Origin: Clostridia bacterium
GTDB taxonomy: Bacteria; Bacillota; Clostridia; Christensenellales; Borkfalkiaceae
Assembly: GCA_021204625.1 (NCBI GenBank)
Contig: JAJPZA010000184.1
Span: 1 to 63,133 of the forward strand
Reading direction: 5' to 3'
Length of the DNA: 63,133 bases
Shown here: piece by piece, positions 8,637-56,989 of the stretch
How the letters are laid out: every line of letters starts with the position of its first letter
Numbering within the stretch: the stretch's first letter is position 1
Position numbers and translations under genes: made by a program
Notes under the pieces: generated by a model
Seen by the model: only the letters and a program-made list of their open reading frames with translations
Database searches by the model: none
What the model was told of the DNA's origin: nothing

Positions 8637-8778
8637 AGAAAAACGCCCTTCCCGTGCAGGAGGGGCGCATGCATCCGAAGGAATCATATTACCCATAGTT
8701 CACGGCGTTAGCACCTTCCCATTTCTGGCAGGTTGCTGTGTGGTCATCGAGCCGGTCTCTCGCACACTCTATATAGGT
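8637..8778 (-). ncRNA. SAM-I (S-box) riboswitch with terminator expression platform
   Basis: On the minus strand P1 is ACCTAT/ATGGGT (8773-8778 with 8691-8696). It encloses the conserved S-box elements AGAG, GATGA, GCAACCTGCC and AAGGTGCTAA in the right order. Downstream a 10-bp stem with one mismatch (8643-8652 with 8659-8668) is followed by a T tract, which makes an intrinsic terminator. Binding of SAM should favour termination before metK. Family assignment rests on these conserved blocks; no covariance search was run. Confidence 0.93.
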
Positions 8779-8796
8779 CTCTGAAGTTGTGATGAA

Positions 8797-18772: not shown

Positions 18773-20176
18773 TCAGAACTCAATCTTCTTTGCGATGTAG
18801 GCTTCAAGCTCATCTATGGGGAGACGGATCTGGTCCATGGTGTCGCGGTCACGGATTGTGACGGTGTTGTCGCTAAGCGTGTCATAATCTATCGTGATGC
18901 ACATGGGGGTGCCTATCTCATCCTGACGGCGGTAACGCTTTCCTATGGACCCTGTTACGTCATAGGTTACGGAGAACTTCTTCGCAAGCATCCTGTACAC
19001 TTCGTCCGCCTTGTCGGAGAGGTTTTTCTGGAGAGGCAGGATGGCTGCCTTGTAGGGAGCAAGGAAAGGATGAAGGTGCATTACCACTCGGGTGTCGTTC
19101 TTCTCTGCGTTCACGACCTCTTCATCATACGCGTCCGTAATCACCGCGAGGAACAGGCGCTCAACGCCGAGAGACGGCTCTATTACATAGGGTATGTATC
19201 TCTCATTCGTTACGGGGTCCAGGTAATCCATGCTCTCGCCGGATGTGTTCTGGTGCTGGGTGAGGTCATAGTCCGTCCTGTCCGCGATGCCCCAGAGCTC
19301 GCCCCAGCCGAAGGCGTAATAATACTCGAAGTCCGTTGTGGCCTTGGAATAGAAGCAGAGCTCTTCCTTGTCATGGTCGCGGAGCTTTAAATTCTCTTCC
19401 TTGATGCCTAGGTCCAGAAGGAACTGTTTGCAGAAATCCTTCCAGTATGCGAACCATTCGAGGTCTGTTCCGGGTTTGCAGAAGAACTCAAGCTCCATCT
19501 GCTCGAACTCGCGCACGCGGAAGATGAAGTTGCCTGGCGTGATCTCGTTTCTGAAGGACTTGCCTATCTGTCCGATGCCGAAAGGCACTTTCATTCTGGA
19601 GGAGCGCTGTACGTTCTTGAAGTTGACGAATATGCCCTGTGCGGTCTCGGGACGGAGGTATACGGTGTTCACCGTGTCCTCTGTGACGCCCTGGAAGGTC
19701 TTGAACATGAGGTTGAACTTGCGGATGGGAGTGAAGTCGCTCTTTCCGCAAACGGGGCAGACTATCTTGTGTTCAAATACGAATTTCTCAAGCTCGTCAT
19801 TGCTCATGCCCTCAACCTTGAGTTCCATTCCGTGCTTCTTCGCATAGTCCTCAACGAGGTTGTCCGCTCTGTGCCTGGCCTTGCAGGACTTGCAGTCCAT
19901 AAGGGGGTCTGAGAATCCGCCTATGTGTCCGGACGCCTGCCACGTCTTCGTGTTCATGAGGATGGCGCAGTCCAGCCCCGTGTTGTATGTGTTTTCCTGT
20001 ACGAACTTCTTCCACCAGGCTCTCTTTATGTTGTTTTTGAGCTCCACGCCCAGGGGGCCGAAATCCCATGTGTTCGCCAGGCCTCCGTATATCTCGCTGC
20101 CGGGATAAATGAAGCCCCTTGTCTTGCAAAGCGCGACAAGCTTGTCCATGGTGACCGCTCTTTTATCTTTTGCCAT
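18773..20176 (-). CDS. glyS: Glycyl-tRNA synthetase, homodimeric type
   Basis: This class II synthetase charges tRNA-Gly. At 467 aa with a single chain it is the dimeric (alpha2) type, not the GlyQ/GlyS tetramer. It opens with a [21 protein letters not shown] start and carries cysteine pairs ([21 protein letters not shown]) in the zinc-like insertion. Class II motif 2 is at [13 protein letters not shown], and the motif 3 region is [18 protein letters not shown] precedes the ATG. Its promoter is a clean TTGACA-17-TAAAAT without a glycine T-box. Confidence 0.97.
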
Positions 20177-20220
20177 GATATGACCTCTGTACTAAAGTCT
20201 CCGTCTTAAACAGTATCTAA

Positions 20221-20249
20221 ATTTTATGAAAAAACAAGTGGGATGTCAA
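20221..20249 (-). promoter_or_regulatory. Promoter of glyS
   Basis: On the minus strand TTGACA and TAAAAT are separated by 17 bp. The leader of about 38 nt is too short for a T-box. Confidence 0.75.
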
Positions 20250-20280
20250 GCGATAGACCCCCCATGACGCATTGTTTGGA

Positions 20281-20309
20281 TTGACAAGCCCCGGTTAGTC
20301 TGCTAGAAT
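20281..20309 (+). promoter_or_regulatory. Strong orphan promoter
   Basis: A consensus TTGACA is separated by 17 bp from TAGAAT, firing rightward into a region with no annotated gene for 300 bp. Predicted +1 is about 20316. Confidence 0.75.
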
Positions 20310-20315
20310 CCAAGC

Positions 20316-20402
20316 ATAAGGATGCGGCATGGCATTTGCCATGCAGTGATACGATGTACATTACTGTTCAGTGAAAGGGGAGGCCATATGCATCCTTTTT
20401 TT
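20316..20402 (+). ncRNA. Candidate structured small RNA with terminator-like end
   Basis: The predicted transcript starts at the orphan promoter. GGATGC (20320-20325) pairs with GCATCC (20390-20395), followed by seven T's. Inside are a GCATGGC/GCCATGC hairpin with an ATTT loop (20328-20341) and an AGTGAT/ATTACT stem (20345-20365). A second partner, GCCAT at 20383-20387, can displace the first hairpin, so two folds compete. I do not recognise a known family (SRP RNA, 6S, tmRNA and T-box signatures are absent). It overlaps the start of a 25-codon ORF, so it may instead be that ORF's leader. Confidence 0.55.
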
Positions 20403-20465
20403 GTTGCCGTTTTTTATGTATCCGTCAGCAGTTTGCGCCCTCCGGGCCCAAGCTTTGCCAGCTGA
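20388..20465 (+). CDS. Possible 25-aa hydrophobic peptide
   Basis: An ATG at 20388 follows an unusually strong AAAGGGGAGG site with a 4-nt spacer. The frame encodes a short peptide beginning MHPFFVAVFYVSVSSLRPP, then a stop. The hydrophobic N-terminal half followed by a basic/proline part is reminiscent of small membrane peptides or type I toxins. The start codon region is paired with the 5' end of the transcript in the predicted fold, which would block translation in the full-length RNA. Nothing proves that it is translated, and the T run inside codons 3-5 could be a terminator instead. Confidence 0.35.
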   Translation: MHPFFVAVFYVSVSSLRPPGPSFAS

Positions 20466-20570
20466 AAAGCCTATGCCGGTCTGCCCGGGAAAGGTGTAAA
20501 ACTAATTTAACAGGGTCCAAAAAAGACCCTTCCAAGACCAAAAAACTGCGAGATATTATCCTGTAATCCG

Positions 20571-20599
20571 TTGAAAATCCTGCACATGTATGCTATCAT
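20571..20599 (+). promoter_or_regulatory. Promoter of the restriction-modification gene
   Basis: TTGAAA and TATCAT are separated by 17 bp. The 16-nt string AATCCGTTGAAAATCC around the -35 recurs exactly at 24530-24545, upstream of fhs. Confidence 0.7.
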
Positions 20600-20622
20600 T
20601 GAACGCAGGAATGGTGGAAGAC

Positions 20623-23448
20623 ATGACTGATACAGAGCAGAAAACGGCGGCTAAAGCGTTTGCGGAAAGATGGAAAGGACACGGATATGAGAAGGGGGAG
20701 AGCCAGACTTTCTGGATAGAGCTCCTTACCCAGGTCTTTGGCGTGGAGAATGCCTCAGATGTTATAAAATTCGAGCAGGAAGTTCATTTGGACAACACCA
20801 GCTTCATAGATGCCAGGATTCCGTCCACGCGGGTCATGATAGAGCAGAAGAGCATCACCAAGGATCTCAACAAGGCCATAAAGCAGTCAGACGGATCCAT
20901 GCTTACTCCATTCCAGCAGGCAAAGCGTTATATCAGTGAACTCCCGGTAAGCGAACATCCGCTTTGGGTCATTACCTGCAACTTTAAAGAGTTTTACATC
21001 TATAACATGGACAACCCGAAGGGTGAGCCGGAAAAGATTCTCCTTCAGGACCTTCCCATTGAGTACTACAGGCTGCAGTTCATAATTGATACCAAGAGCG
21101 AGCATATCGCAAAGGAGACAGAAGTCTCCATAGCGGCCGGCGATATCGTTGGCCTTCTCTATGACGCCTTTGCAAAGCAGTACAAGGATATGAATAACGA
21201 GCACACGCAGCACAGTCTCAATGTCCTCTGCGTCCGTCTCGTATTCTGCCTCTATGCCGAGGATGCGGACATCTTCGGCAAGCGGGACATGTTCCATGAT
21301 TACATGGCTGCTTTCAAGACCTTCCAGATGCGCAAGGCCCTTATAGACCTGTTCAAGATTCTGGACACGAAGGAAGAGGACAGAGATCCCTACCTTGCAG
21401 ACGACAACCCGGATCTTGCTGCGTTCCCGTATGTCAACGGAGGCATGTTCTCAGACGAGGATATAGAGGTTCCGCCCTTTACGGATGAAATCCGCAACCT
21501 TCTTCTGAACAAGGCAAGTCTTGAGTTTGACTGGTCCGTCATTAGTCCCACTATATTCGGGGCTGTATTCGAGAGTACCTTGAATCCCGAGACCCGCCGT
21601 TCCGGAGGCATGCATTACACAAGCATTGAGAACATCCATAAGGTTATAGACCCTCTGTTCCTCAATGACCTTCAAAAGGAGTTCGACACAATAAACGCCA
21701 GCCCCGTATACAAGACCAAGGTCCGCAGGCTTGAAGACTTCCAGACCAAGCTCTCCATGCTTTACTTCCTGGACCCCGCCTGCGGCAGCGGCAATTTCCT
21801 CACAGAGACTTTCCTTTCCCTGAGGCGTCTTGAGAACAAGGCCATAAGCATCATCCTTCATGACCAGATAAAGTACGCAGAAAAGGGATACTCGCCTATT
21901 AAAGTGAACCTGGACCAGTTCTACGGCATAGAGATCAATGACTTCGCCGTGACCGTCGCAAAGACCGCTCTCTGGATAGCCGAGGCCCAGATGAAGAAGG
22001 AGACCGAGGAACTCCTGTACATGCATCTGGATTTCCTGCCGTTGAAGTCCAATACGAACATCATAGAGGGCAATGCGGTGCTTATGGACTGGGAGGATGT
22101 TGTTTCGAAGTCTAAGCTTACATATATCATGGGCAATCCGCCGTTTGTAGGGGCCCGCCTCATGAGCCAGGAACAAAAGAATGAGCTCAACAAGGTGTTC
22201 TATGGATGGAAGAATGCAGGCAACCTAGATTATGTTTCATGCTGGTACAAGAAGGCTGTAGACTACATGGAGGGAACGGAAATCCGTTCTGCGTTAGTGT
22301 CTACAAACTCTATCACGCAAGGGGAAAGTGTCAGTATATTATGGAAGCCACTTGTTGAGAGTGGCGTTCATATTGATTTTGCTCATCGCACATTCCGCTG
22401 GGACAGTGAGGCCAACATTAAAGCTCATGTCCACTGTGTGATTGTCGGATTTAGTATAGCACCATATAACAGTGACAGAATCATCTACACAGGCGATAGA
22501 CCGCAGAAAGCTCATAATATTAATGGATATCTCATAGATGCAGACAACGTTTTTGTTGAGAGTAGAAAGAGTCCCATCAGTCCTGTTCCATGCATGGTAT
22601 TTGGCAGCATGGCTAATGATGGTGGATGGCTTTGCAACTATTCTCCGAAAAAAAAAGATGCTATAGTCAAGGCATATCCACAAGCAGAGAAATTCATTAG
22701 AAGAATTTATGGAGCCGAGGAGTTCATTAATAACAAAGAGAGATACTGTATCTGGCTAAAAGGTGCTTCCCCTTCCGAATGGAATAAGATCAAGCCAATC
22801 TATGATGCTGTTCAAAATGTACACGAATATAGACTTGCTAGCAAGAGAGATGCAACAAGAAAGTTAGCCGATAAAGCAATGCTTTTTGGTGAGGTAAGAC
22901 AACCTGAAACAGGTTACTATTTGCTTGTGCCTAGGGTATCATCTGAAAAGAGAAGGTATGTGCCTATTGGCTTTATGCACAGTGACATTATCTGTTCTGA
23001 CTCAAATCAAATGGTCCCTAATGCTACATTATATCATTTTGGAGTCCTAACATCCAATGTTCATATGGCTTGGATGCGTGCAGTATGCGGCAGACTCGAA
23101 ATGAGGTACAGGTATTCAAATGAAGTAGTGTACAATAACTTCCCTTGGCCCAATCCTACACCGGCACAGAGAGCCAAGATAGAACAGACGGCACAGGCAA
23201 TTCTGGATGCAAGGAACCTGTATCCGGACAGCAGCCTGGCAGATCTATATGATGAACTTACAATGCCTATAGAACTCCGTAATGCTCACAGGCAGAATGA
23301 CAGGGCCGTTATGGAGGCATACGGATTCTCTGTTAAGGATATGACAGAGTCCTCCTGTGTGGCAGAGCTTTTCAAGCTGTATGAGAGCATCACTTCCAGG
23401 ATGGAAGCAGAGGCAAAAGCCGGCAAGTCTAAGAAGTCCAAGAAGTAG
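20623..23448 (+). CDS. Single-chain type IIG/IIL (MmeI-like) restriction-modification enzyme
   Basis: This 941-aa protein combines endonuclease, N6-adenine methyltransferase and specificity functions in one chain. The N-terminal nuclease shows D63...E74-x-K76, a PD-(D/E)xK-type site. The helical linker runs to about 340. Methyltransferase motif I is DPACGSGNF (384-392) and motif IV is NPPF (505-508). The target-recognition region, about residues 555-845, is followed by a C-terminal helical tail ending in lysines. Upstream in-frame Mets fall in or next to the -10, so the ATG at 20623, with GGTGG before it, is preferred. The recognition region is clearly more AT-rich than both flanks, suggesting exchange of specificity. 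The recognised site cannot be predicted by eye. Confidence 0.92.
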   Translation: MTDTEQKTAAKAFAERWKGHGYEKGESQTFWIELLTQVFGVENASDVIKFEQEVHLDNTSFIDARIPSTRVMIEQKSITKDLNKAIKQSDGSMLTPFQQAKRYISELPVSEHPLWVITCNFKEFYIYNMDNPKGEPEKILLQDLPIEYYRLQFIIDTKSEHIAKETEVSIAAGDIVGLLYDAFAKQYKDMNNEHTQHSLNVLCVRLVFCLYAEDADIFGKRDMFHDYMAAFKTFQMRKALIDLFKILDTKEEDRDPYLADDNPDLAAFPYVNGGMFSDEDIEVPPFTDEIRNLLLNKASLEFDWSVISPTIFGAVFESTLNPETRRSGGMHYTSIENIHKVIDPLFLNDLQKEFDTINASPVYKTKVRRLEDFQTKLSMLYFLDPACGSGNFLTETFLSLRRLENKAISIILHDQIKYAEKGYSPIKVNLDQFYGIEINDFAVTVAKTALWIAEAQMKKETEELLYMHLDFLPLKSNTNIIEGNAVLMDWEDVVSKSKLTYIMGNPPFVGARLMSQEQKNELNKVFYGWKNAGNLDYVSCWYKKAVDYMEGTEIRSALVSTNSITQGESVSILWKPLVESGVHIDFAHRTFRWDSEANIKAHVHCVIVGFSIAPYNSDRIIYTGDRPQKAHNINGYLIDADNVFVESRKSPISPVPCMVFGSMANDGGWLCNYSPKKKDAIVKAYPQAEKFIRRIYGAEEFINNKERYCIWLKGASPSEWNKIKPIYDAVQNVHEYRLASKRDATRKLADKAMLFGEVRQPETGYYLLVPRVSSEKRRYVPIGFMHSDIICSDSNQMVPNATLYHFGVLTSNVHMAWMRAVCGRLEMRYRYSNEVVYNNFPWPNPTPAQRAKIEQTAQAILDARNLYPDSSLADLYDELTMPIELRNAHRQNDRAVMEAYGFSVKDMTESSCVAELFKLYESITSRMEAEAKAGKSKKSKK

Positions 23449-23499
23449 TTTCAAGAAGACGGATCATATAGATTTCCCCTGACATATCATTAAAAAACA

Positions 23500-23524
23500 T
23501 TTCCACGCATTGCGTGGAAATTTT
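23500..23524 (+). terminator. Intrinsic terminator of the restriction-modification gene
   Basis: A perfect 9-bp stem (23500-23508 with 23512-23520), a three-base loop and TTTT. Confidence 0.85.
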
Positions 23525-23577
23525 CAAAACAGGCAGAAATTTCGAGGTCACATAATTACGCACGGAGAGGCCAGCGC

Positions 23578-24486
23578 ATGAGCAAAAAAAGACATTATGA
23601 CATCCTGCCGGATTTCAGGCACTACACCTGGATTCATCTGCCGATGAACCGCTTTGTCCTAAGACTGGCGGCGGCTTTCATGCCAATGATTCAGCCCTGG
23701 CACAAACTGTACAGGAAGGAGCTCACTCGCAAGATGATTAAATTCAACGGCTTCAAGGCGAAGCTCATTCAGCCGGCCTCGGATGATTCACCCAAGGCTG
23801 TCATGCTGTACATCCACGGAGGAGGCTTTGCTCTCAAGGCGGCCGCATATCACAAGGAGCTTGCGCAGCATTACGCAGCCCGGACAGGCTGTACGGTGCT
23901 TTTTCCGGATTACAGCCTCACTCCCGGGAACAGGTATCCCGTGCAGCTGGATGAATGTATAAGCGCATATATGTGGCTTTCAACGCAGTATCCGGAGACA
24001 AAAATCATAGTGGGAGGAGACAGCGCCGGAGGGTGCATTGCGGCGGCTATGACCCTTGCCTGCAAAAGGGACGGTCTGCGGATTCCGGATGCTCTCATGC
24101 TGGTGTATCCGGTCCTGGACGCACGGATGCAGACGGAGTCCATGAAGGAGTACACGGACACCCCCATGTGGAACAGCAGATGCAACAGGAAGATGTGGGA
24201 GTATTACGCAGATTCGGAGCAGTATGAAGACCCGTATGTTTCGCCTGCCTGTGCGGATGATCTCACGTTTTTTCCCAGGACATATGTGGAGACAACGCAG
24301 TATGACTGCCTTCATGACGAGGGTATCATATTTGCGCAGAGGCTGCAGGAGCAGGGTGTGGCTGTGGAGGTCAATGAGACCAAAGGCACCATGCACGGAT
24401 ATGACATAGCGCAGAAGAGCCCGTACGTGAAAGAGCAGGTGGAAAGGAGAATAGCCTTTCTTGCATCCGTCATTGAAGGGGCATGA
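23578..24486 (+). CDS. Alpha/beta hydrolase, HSL (family IV) esterase
   Basis: This 302-aa cytoplasmic esterase/lipase of the hormone-sensitive-lipase family has the oxyanion motif HGGG at 80-83. The nucleophile is S149 in GGDSAGG. The likely acid is D243 (QYDCLHDEG), and the catalytic histidine is H273 (MHGYD). It should hydrolyse short acyl esters. GAGAGG precedes the ATG at 23578. It is separated from the restriction gene by a terminator and is probably monocistronic. The natural substrate is unknown. Confidence 0.92.
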   Translation: MSKKRHYDILPDFRHYTWIHLPMNRFVLRLAAAFMPMIQPWHKLYRKELTRKMIKFNGFKAKLIQPASDDSPKAVMLYIHGGGFALKAAAYHKELAQHYAARTGCTVLFPDYSLTPGNRYPVQLDECISAYMWLSTQYPETKIIVGGDSAGGCIAAAMTLACKRDGLRIPDALMLVYPVLDARMQTESMKEYTDTPMWNSRCNRKMWEYYADSEQYEDPYVSPACADDLTFFPRTYVETTQYDCLHDEGIIFAQRLQEQGVAVEVNETKGTMHGYDIAQKSPYVKEQVERRIAFLASVIEGA

Positions 24487-24534
24487 CCTTTGCACGCGTG
24501 CGCGACAAAATTTTCGCCAACTTGCCTCAATCCG

Positions 24535-24563
24535 TTGAAAATCCCCTTCGGATATGGTATCAT
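24535..24563 (+). promoter_or_regulatory. Promoter at the start of the fhs upstream region
   Basis: TTGAAA and TATCAT are separated by 17 bp, with the same -35 context as the restriction-modification promoter. +1 would be about 24570, 250 nt ahead of fhs. Confidence 0.65.
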
Positions 24564-24569
24564 AGCTTC

Positions 24570-24735
24570 GTGATTTGCAAAGGGCGTATTGCGCCCTGCC
24601 GGCAGAGCGGCAGGGATTATGCGTTTTGGCCATGCGGGACATGGCCCGGACAGTGCGGGAAGTGCAATACGGGCTGGGGAAGCCGGGAAAACGGCAAGAA
24701 AATATTGCTTGTATGCGCATTTTGTTGGTTAAAGA
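24570..24735 (+). ncRNA. Candidate structured leader or small RNA upstream of fhs
   Basis: Downstream of the promoter there is a nested hairpin (GCGTA/TATGC enclosing CCCTGCC/GGCAGGG, 24583-24624). A perfect GGCCATG/CATGGCC hairpin follows (24628-24646). A GCAATA/TATTGC pairing (24664-24669 with 24705-24711) encloses a further GC hairpin. No frame with a ribosome binding site explains the region. I cannot match it to a known riboswitch, including the tetrahydrofolate class. It may be an independent RNA, because fhs has its own promoter just downstream. Confidence 0.45.
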
Positions 24736-24736
24736 G

Positions 24737-24767
24737 TTGTACTTTTTTGGGTTGCATATGATATAAT
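24737..24767 (+). promoter_or_regulatory. Second, extended -10 promoter of fhs
   Basis: A TGATATAAT extended -10 (24759-24767) has a poorly spaced TTGTAC 19 bp upstream. Start is about 46 nt before the fhs ATG. Confidence 0.55.
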
Positions 24768-24819
24768 CAAATGCAAGTAATATAATTACGCGTGCAGGCG
24801 GAAGCAGAGAAGGGCAGAA

Positions 24820-31454: not shown

Positions 31455-31785
31455 AGCCCCGGCACATGACCAGTGGAGGCCGTCAGCTCCAATCTTGGAT
31501 ATAGCCCCGGGTCTTTTGGGGACCATCAACTCCAATCTTGGATATAGCCCCGGGTCTTTTGGGGCCGTCAACTCAAATTTTGGATATAACCCCGGACCTT
31601 TTGGGGCCGTCAACTCCGATCTTGAATATAGCTCCGGGTCTTTTGGGACCGTCAGCTCCAATCATGGATATAGCCCAGTCTCAAGAGCCGTCAGCTCAAT
31701 TGCATGAAACAGCCCCAGCATTATGCATGTCGGGGCCGTCAACTCATTATTTGGATATAGCCCCGGACCTTTTGGGGCTGTCAGT
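31455..31785. repeat. 42-bp imperfect tandem repeats with terminator-like hairpins
   Basis: About six to seven units share a CCGTCAACTCCAATC..GGATATAGCCCC..TTTTGGGG pattern with a period of 42 bp (one junction 43). Each unit contains an AGCCCC/GGGGCC-type stem around GGTCTTTT. The last lies against the stop codon of the leftward DUF2207 gene. One-base length changes break reading frames, so it is not coding. It separates two converging genes and looks like a reiterated bidirectional terminator. Confidence 0.85.
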
Positions 31786-34965: not shown

Positions 34966-35293
34966 GTATTCTTATGTAATTTCTGAGCAGGCTGAGGATG
35001 AAATACAGTGCAGTTGTTTTTACCTCGTTAATATCGTAGGCAATCAGATTGCAGTAAACGAACTGTATTCACAGTTGTATAGTTCATTAGACTTGATCTG
35101 TGAGTACCCTTATATGTATCCGGATTGCCGTATCTACAATATACAGGATGAACTGATACGTCATGCAAATGTCGGTTCATATGTTTTGGTTTATCAAATA
35201 GAAGACGCCAAATCTCTAATAGATGTTCTGCATTTTTTTGGTAAAAATCAGAATATTGCTAAACTTATGGAGAAAAACAGTTATCTCAATTAA
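34955..35293 (+). CDS. RelE/ParE-family toxin
   Basis: This 112-aa protein starts KYSYVISEQAEDEIQ, the strand-helix start of RelE/ParE toxins. It ends with VGSYVLVYQIEDAKSLIDVLHFFGKNQN, the conserved R/Y-V-x-Y...V..V.H pattern. It overlaps its antitoxin by 11 bp, a coupled arrangement that keeps antitoxin synthesis ahead of toxin. RelE-type mRNA cleavage or ParE-type gyrase inhibition cannot be told apart by eye. Codon use is AT-rich, like the antitoxin. Confidence 0.88.
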   Translation: MSSKYSYVISEQAEDEIQCSCFYLVNIVGNQIAVNELYSQLYSSLDLICEYPYMYPDCRIYNIQDELIRHANVGSYVLVYQIEDAKSLIDVLHFFGKNQNIAKLMEKNSYLN

Positions 35294-35339
35294 GAGATAA
35301 TCAGGTTTTACAGTACAAAAGGGGCATTTGTCAAAAGTA

Positions 35340-35369
35340 TTGACATATACGCCCCCTTTGGTCTATAAT
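35340..35369 (+). promoter_or_regulatory. Promoter inside a large inverted repeat
   Basis: Consensus TTGACA and TATAAT are separated by 18 bp. The -35 forms part of an inverted repeat (AAAGGGG...TGTCAA / TTGACA...CCCCTTT, 35319-35359). Predicted +1 is about 35376. Confidence 0.75.
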
Positions 35370-35378
35370 GAGTTTAAG

Positions 35379-42654: not shown

Positions 42655-42688
42655 AACGGGCCTCTCTTTTCAAATAAAACAAAAATGT

Positions 42689-42716
42689 AAAAGCCGGAAC
42701 AGTGTTCCGGCTTTTG
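42689..42716 (-). terminator. Terminator-like hairpin between metY and metA
   Basis: A near-perfect AAAGCCGGAACA/TGTTCCGGCTTT palindrome is followed, read leftward, by T-rich sequence. Other small GC hairpins lie at 42721-42765. It probably lowers or separates metA expression from metY. Confidence 0.65.
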
Positions 42717-42771
42717 TGCGCCGGCATTAAAGTCTTGCCGGCCGCTTTATGCGGCGGCTTCGGCAGGCTGT

Positions 42772-49097: not shown

Positions 49098-49231
49098 AAA
49101 GCTCATTTAAAGCTCAATTAGAGCTCAATTAAAGCTCAATTAAAGCTCATTTAAAGCTCATTTAAAGCTCATTTAAAGCTCAATTAAAGCTCATTTAAAG
49201 CTCAATTAAACTTATTTAAACCGCCATTTAA
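49098..49231. repeat. 11-bp direct-repeat (iteron-like) array
   Basis: Ten units of GCTCAWTTAAA begin at 49101, 49112, 49123, 49134, 49145, 49156, 49167, 49178, 49189 and 49200 without spacing errors. Degenerate TTATTTAAA and CCGCCATTTAAA units follow. The period is close to one helical turn, and A/T runs are in phase, so DNA curvature is expected. It lies between the AlbA_2 gene and the MutT-GNAT gene. Confidence 0.95.
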
Positions 49232-49289
49232 ACCGCCATCATGGATTGGCTTGGTTTTAAAAATATAAGAATATGTGCCAGGATAATGA

Positions 49290-56731: not shown

Positions 56732-56989
56732 AAAAAATGCCCTGCTTAAGCCAATGTACTTAACACAGGGCGAAATTATCGCGGTACCACCTGATTTCAC
56801 AGCCGCCGGGGCGGCTGCCTCATTTGCTCGTTTACGCAGAGTCACGGGGCACATTACTAATCTCTTTTCACATGCCCGGCTCGCAGGTGAATAACTGATC
56901 CCGCCTTTTAGGAAACCTTGCAGCCCACGGAGCTTCCCTCTCTGTAAAAGACCATATGTATCAGTCTGTCCCGGTCATCGCCTTTGACA
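56732..56989 (-). ncRNA. T-box leader of pheST, specifier UUC (Phe)
   Basis: On the minus strand stem I contains CAGAGAGGGAAGCTCC...GGCTGCAAG in pieces, then a UUC trinucleotide followed by ACC (complement of 56889-56891), the expected Phe specifier position. The conserved AGGTGGTACCGCG element is at 56780-56792. A terminator (GCCCTG..CTTAAG / CTTAAC..CAGGGC, 56732-56772) ends in six T's. Uncharged tRNA-Phe should stabilise the antiterminator. Assignment is from conserved blocks; no covariance search was run. Confidence 0.94.

Follow-up and report, generated by a model that had tools for sequence, protein, structure and literature searches.

A candidate small RNA gene between glyS and an MmeI-like restriction-modification gene in a Clostridia bacterium

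In the 63,133-nucleotide stretch of DNA analysed here (the window), a gap of 413 bases separates glyS on the minus strand from an MmeI-like open reading frame on the plus strand, and a near-consensus promoter lies in this gap ahead of a stem and a run of T's. The question is what this promoter makes: a free small RNA, an attenuated leader of the restriction gene, the mRNA of a short toxin, or nothing of use. Our best explanation, held with moderate confidence, is a stand-alone small RNA gene, lineage-specific and self-terminating, with a non-coding product some 85 nt long, of an ordinary kind and with its function unproven; an MmeI leader and a chance arrangement are its main rivals. The features of the locus are collected in Table 1.

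Table 1. Features of the locus in window coordinates.
Feature	Position	Strand	Remarks
Sigma-70-type promoter TTGACA-17-TAGAAT	20281..20309	plus	11/12, TG before -10; -35 TTGACA 20281-20286, 17-nt spacer, -10 TAGAAT 20304-20309
Predicted small RNA, ~85 nt	20318..20402	plus	both ends inferred; fold -30.1 kcal/mol, z -2.63
Closing stem P1, 5' arm (8-9 bp)	20318..20326	plus	
Closing stem P1, 3' arm	20389..20397	plus	covers bases 2 and 3 of ATG 20388
Hairpin P2, perfect 7 bp, loop ATTT	20327..20344	plus	-12.7 kcal/mol alone; early-folding alternative
Hairpin P3, 6 bp, 9-nt loop	20345..20365	plus	-1.9 kcal/mol alone; weak alternative
Seven-T run, terminator-like tail	20396..20402	plus	
25-aa ORF	20388..20465	plus	GGGGAGG 20377-20383; judged not a gene
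Glycyl-tRNA synthetase gene (glyS)	18773-20176	minus	
Divergent glyS promoter	20221..20249	minus	11/12; within part common to G025
MmeI-like bifunctional restriction-modification gene	20623..23448	plus	inferred start 20623; longest ORF from 20590
Separate MmeI-like gene promoter TTGAAA-17-TATCAT	20571..20599	plus	10/12
Block absent from G025 (candidate RNA gene and MmeI-like gene), roughly 3.3 kb	20258..23577 (outer limits)		right border between 23449 and 23577

The predicted RNA and its fold

The promoter named by an earlier sequence-only reading of this DNA is present, and so is the pairing of a 5' GGATGC (20320-20325) with a GCATCC (20390-20395) that lies over a start codon and before seven T's. 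The pairing can be extended to 9 pairs, in which case two of the seven T's fall within the stem. The most stable computed fold of 20316-20406 is a single long imperfect hairpin, and 3 of 200 shuffles were equally good. Two competing partners had also been proposed for the segment GCATGGC (20327-20333), namely GCCATGC (20338-20344) and GCCAT (20383-20387), and this is plausible by energy: a branched alternative that contains P2 reaches -24.8 kcal/mol against -30.1 kcal/mol for the long hairpin. When growing 5' fragments were folded, those between 30 and 75 nt showed P2 and those of 80 nt or more showed the long hairpin, so that energies and fragment folds together bear out the two partners. A simple terminator scan of 20100-20700 did not call a terminator at the 3' end of the RNA, because its loop limit is 8 nt.

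Under the preferred explanation, RNA polymerase would start near 20316-20318 and the 5' hairpin P2 would fold first. With the 3' end transcribed, the 8-9 bases at the start of the RNA could pair with 20389-20397 directly before the T run, and the RNA would refold into the long hairpin and the chain be released. The reading frame at 20388 would then lie mostly past the end of the RNA and stay untranslated, the overlap of its start codon with the stem being a by-product, and the RNA would not drive the MmeI-like gene, which appears to have a promoter of its own. The promoter match, the stem, the T run, the energies and the absence from the closest relative come from computation; transcription, termination and stability of the RNA are predictions from the sequence. 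Self-terminating intergenic small RNAs are a general bacterial kind; the predicted RNA resembles them in its own promoter, a length below 100 nt, a strong fold and an intrinsic-terminator-like T-run end, and differs in that it has no Rfam 15 family match, no relative found in the searches and no known target. Regulation by base-pairing in trans is the default guess for its role. If it is transcribed, the locus would add one to the lineage-specific small RNA genes, in this case within a block that also carries a restriction gene and is missing from the sister species. Only an action of the RNA on MmeI or on phage would give it broader interest, and the analysis gives no sign of either.

Chance, relatives and the surrounding block

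The layout was cast as a rule with three parts: a promoter that matches at 10/12 positions or better, a stem of 7 or more pairs that begins where the RNA is expected to start, and a T run 40-150 bases further along. Only one place on the two strands of the window fits, the RNA locus itself, and 20 first-order Markov sequences as long as the window contain none, which backs the earlier claim of a compact RNA that begins behind a promoter and folds from end to end ahead of a run of T's. With promoters of 9/12 allowed, the window has 3 such places; the fetched loci have 19 in 847,407 bases and the Markov sequences 5 in 946,995 bases. The layout is therefore uncommon, not unique. Six of the 19 places have promoters of at least 10/12, and three belong to L132 and L141, two loci included because of their resemblance to the RNA model. 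The fold by itself is only mildly unusual, as 64 of 2102 ninety-base windows matched or went below its z of -3.03 (top 3%). Counting further against a small RNA gene, the full stem of 8-9 bp leaves five T's after it, the 62-63 nt between its arms are long for a simple terminator, and the searches turned up no homologue for a covariation test of the pairing.

These points would also suit a locus that is neither RNA gene nor leader, but a combination that arose by chance or through decay in an inserted stretch of 350 nt not under selection. We regard this as unlikely: the mild fold, the similar layouts in other loci and the failure to find a homologue in the genomes searched agree with it, whereas the combination of an 11/12 promoter, end stem and T run in none of the 20 controls argues against it. 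For the small RNA gene we counted, besides this combination and the fold, the extended -10 of the promoter, the separate predicted promoter and start of the MmeI-like gene, the unexceptional reading frame at 20388 and the absence of the block from the sister species G025.

By sequence comparison, the RNA has no convincing relative in its own genome, in the genus, order and class genomes (sets that overlap), in Rfam, or in the phage, plasmid and viral collections. In line with the sequence-only reading, no known RNA family was recognised: Rfam 15 gave no family at gathering score, nor at E up to 5, over 20177-20589. Searches of phages and plasmids (blastn) found no convincing relative, and viral contigs contained three exact pieces of 23-24 bases only. 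In the source genome, the matches besides the RNA locus were weak (16-27 nt, E 0.14 and above). The DNA search of 101 relatives gave six genomes with a match at E<=0.01, the source genome included; four of the other five matches were 20-28 nt long and lay over the T-rich stretch, and the last, in G023, was 26 nt at 88% over 20312-20337 (E 0.009), in a genome without a model match at E<=1. A DNA search of 391 class genomes gave five with a match, again including the source genome, the other matches being 27-35 nt long.

A single-sequence RNA model (R1) was used for the genus, order and MmeI-locus searches. It matched 10 of the 93 genus genomes at E<=1 including the source genome (next best 0.012) and 17 of 396 order genomes at E<=0.05, likewise including the source genome. 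The next best order match was G206, with an E of 1.8e-5 that applies to a single genome while 396 were searched. Its P2 arms do not pair in the alignment, and inspection by eye shows a short simple terminator hairpin behind an ORF where the match ends, so it was judged unrelated. Four of the 16 other order matches (G206, G246, G319 and G473) share one genus, g77, from which the G206 and G473 loci were looked at. The weak matches that were aligned came from 13 loci, comprising nine of the 16 non-own order matches and four of the nine non-own genus matches. A role of P2 as an operator in the DNA was also considered: its exact palindrome is found at a single place in the genome, and with up to 3 mismatches 32 forward matches compare with 5 for the reversed pattern, which is a poor control because ATG/GCC-rich coding words are lost on reversal.

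Neither the stem nor the peptide frame is conserved in relatives, an outcome that the sequence-only reading had named as speaking against it, and the chief cause is that the relatives searched lack the stretch altogether. The glyS gene was found in 88 of 93 genus genomes, and the best 30 of these 88 loci, the source locus among them, were compared. The closest relative among these 30 is G025 (glyS 94%), where 208 bases lie between glyS and the start of an abhydrolase gene, as opposed to about 3400 in the window. The abhydrolase gene, which starts at 23578 in the window, is 81% identical between the two. DNA similarity to G025 runs from glyS to about 20257 (83% over 77 bases) and resumes just before the abhydrolase start; from this adjacency and these limits it follows that G025 lacks a block which here contains both the candidate RNA gene and the MmeI-like gene. 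In the other 28 glyS loci, no abhydrolase gene was found within the flank examined (mostly 1.5 kb, shorter in some). Since MmeI is patchy across the genus (5 of 93 genomes, including the source genome), we lean towards a gain of the block here over a loss in G025. A repeat search found no tandem or inverted repeats marking the borders of an insert.

Link to the MmeI-like gene

The ORF at 20590-23448 carries the Pfam MmeI N, hel, Mtase, TRD and C domains, and its start was placed at 20623 because the alignments with genus homologues begin at residue 9-12 of the longest ORF. The predicted RNA does lie upstream of this gene, as the sequence-only reading had pointed out when it spoke of a defence or addiction neighbourhood, but a conserved link between the two did not emerge. 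The MmeI homologue loci comprised 80 among the matches listed from 84,980 species genomes, 8 from viral contigs and 5 from the genus. Model R1 found no convincing RNA copy at the 80 listed loci (best E 0.08, inside an MmeI match), at the 8 viral loci (best E 0.8) or at the 5 genus loci. None of the 80 loci among the matches listed, 72 of which have at least 400 upstream bases, shows the layout on the MmeI strand in the 600 bases before the gene. The homologues are at most 66% identical in protein sequence, so that a loss of non-coding similarity is expected and the search for an upstream element is weak evidence.

These results bear on the possibility that the element is a cis-acting leader, in which the promoter at 20281 would give an attenuated transcript, the terminator stem would compete with the internal hairpins, and read-through would add to MmeI expression. 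The shared strand, a predicted gene start about 220 nt downstream of the RNA, two mutually exclusive folds and a scan of 20100-20700 without a terminator-like site other than the T run all fit a leader. However, the MmeI-like gene has its own predicted promoter at 20571, no convincing RNA relative accompanies its homologues, and no homologue with enough flank shows the layout upstream, and we consider a leader improbable, though still a serious competitor. An action of the RNA on the MmeI start was also considered and found to be without support: a crude duplex ranking, based on crude gene calls and leaving accessibility out of account, put the MmeI start 11th of 42 start regions and glyS 18th.

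Small RNAs associated with restriction genes are described for the EcoRI and Eco29kI systems (PMC3874152), where, in the passages cited, the EcoRI operon encodes an 88-nt Rna0. There the antisense RNAs arise from reverse promoters inside or against the restriction-modification genes, whereas the RNA predicted here lies upstream, on the sense strand and without overlap with MmeI.

The source genome contains a second MmeI-like fragment at a contig end (G000:C20:1-540, L013), 64% identical over 181 residues. The motif of the MmeI promoter recurs at 24529-24563 (77% identical over 35 nt) and, by eye, also before the abhydrolase gene in G025. A second promoter-like site, again TTGAAA-17-TATCAT, is followed by a G+C-rich structured stretch (24535-24740, plus strand; -64.9 kcal/mol, z -1.94; no Rfam match) upstream of a formate-tetrahydrofolate ligase gene. 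In the G025 counterpart of window 24600-24800 (L149, 821-1250), some nine 46-nt units that share the motif GTGAGTACACAATCT follow one another in tandem; the tandem scan of the window shows no array at 24600-24800.

The reading frame at the closing stem

The sequence-only reading had rated the Shine-Dalgarno site before the ATG at 20388 among the strongest in the window and had seen in the frame a hydrophobic peptide. The GGGGAGG ends 4 nt before the ATG, which opens 25 codons with a stop at 20463-20465. A GGAGG placed 3-10 nt before an ATG occurs at 32 places on both strands of the window, 13 of which open ORFs of less than 40 aa, so a Shine-Dalgarno site with a short ORF is not above chance here. 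By eye, the peptide is hydrophobic over about its first half, and the description does not hold for the C-terminal half. The searches found no convincing relatives of the peptide, and a functional peptide is not supported. Within the genus, 32 of 93 genomes gave a match at E<=1 including the source genome (best other 0.0996); at five of six inspected loci the match was one antisense frame of the same gene, which we take to be rpoB, and these matches were judged to be chance.

A type I toxin mRNA, in which end-to-end pairing hides the start of the 25-aa hydrophobic toxin, would explain why the Shine-Dalgarno site and start codon lie beside or within the closing stem, and 5'-3' long-distance interactions with metastable hairpins are described for the Helicobacter aapA mRNAs (PMC6733600). 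The aapA/IsoA systems share with the predicted RNA the pairing of the ends, early hairpins that are replaced in the final fold, and a Shine-Dalgarno site near the paired part; in the passages cited from that work, though, the paired ends enclose a whole ORF and the mRNA has an antisense partner. In the predicted RNA the T run lies within codons 3-5, so that the terminator-like end sits on the start codon and not after the ORF, and a complete toxin frame would exist only in a read-through RNA. Nor did the consensus scan of 20100-20700 detect a minus-strand promoter over the RNA for the antisense RNA whose search had been suggested, the only consensus-type one on that strand being that of glyS. 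Three points make a type I toxin very unlikely and the least probable of the readings: the T run would cut off the ORF, the scan gave no antisense promoter, and the searches gave the peptide no convincing relative. Scarcely more credible is a switch that would have arrived with the MmeI-like gene, in which a single stem would act as both terminator and start-codon lock: transcription would stop at 85 nt, or a persisting P2 would permit read-through, expose the Shine-Dalgarno site and start, and yield the 25-aa peptide.

Elsewhere in the window, the minus strand carries a SAM riboswitch at 8690-8779 (62.6 bits, exceeding the gathering score) and a match to a T-box leader at 56763-56987 (86.4 bits, E 2.4e-17), which narrowly misses the Rfam gathering score of 93. 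Of the 2102 ninety-base windows scanned for folding, 35281-35370 (z -9.6) and 42661-42750 (z -5.8) were among the most extreme, and both contain strong hairpins. Tandem arrays are found at 49098-49232 (11-nt unit, 12.3 copies) and 31478-31676 (42-nt unit, 4.7 copies).
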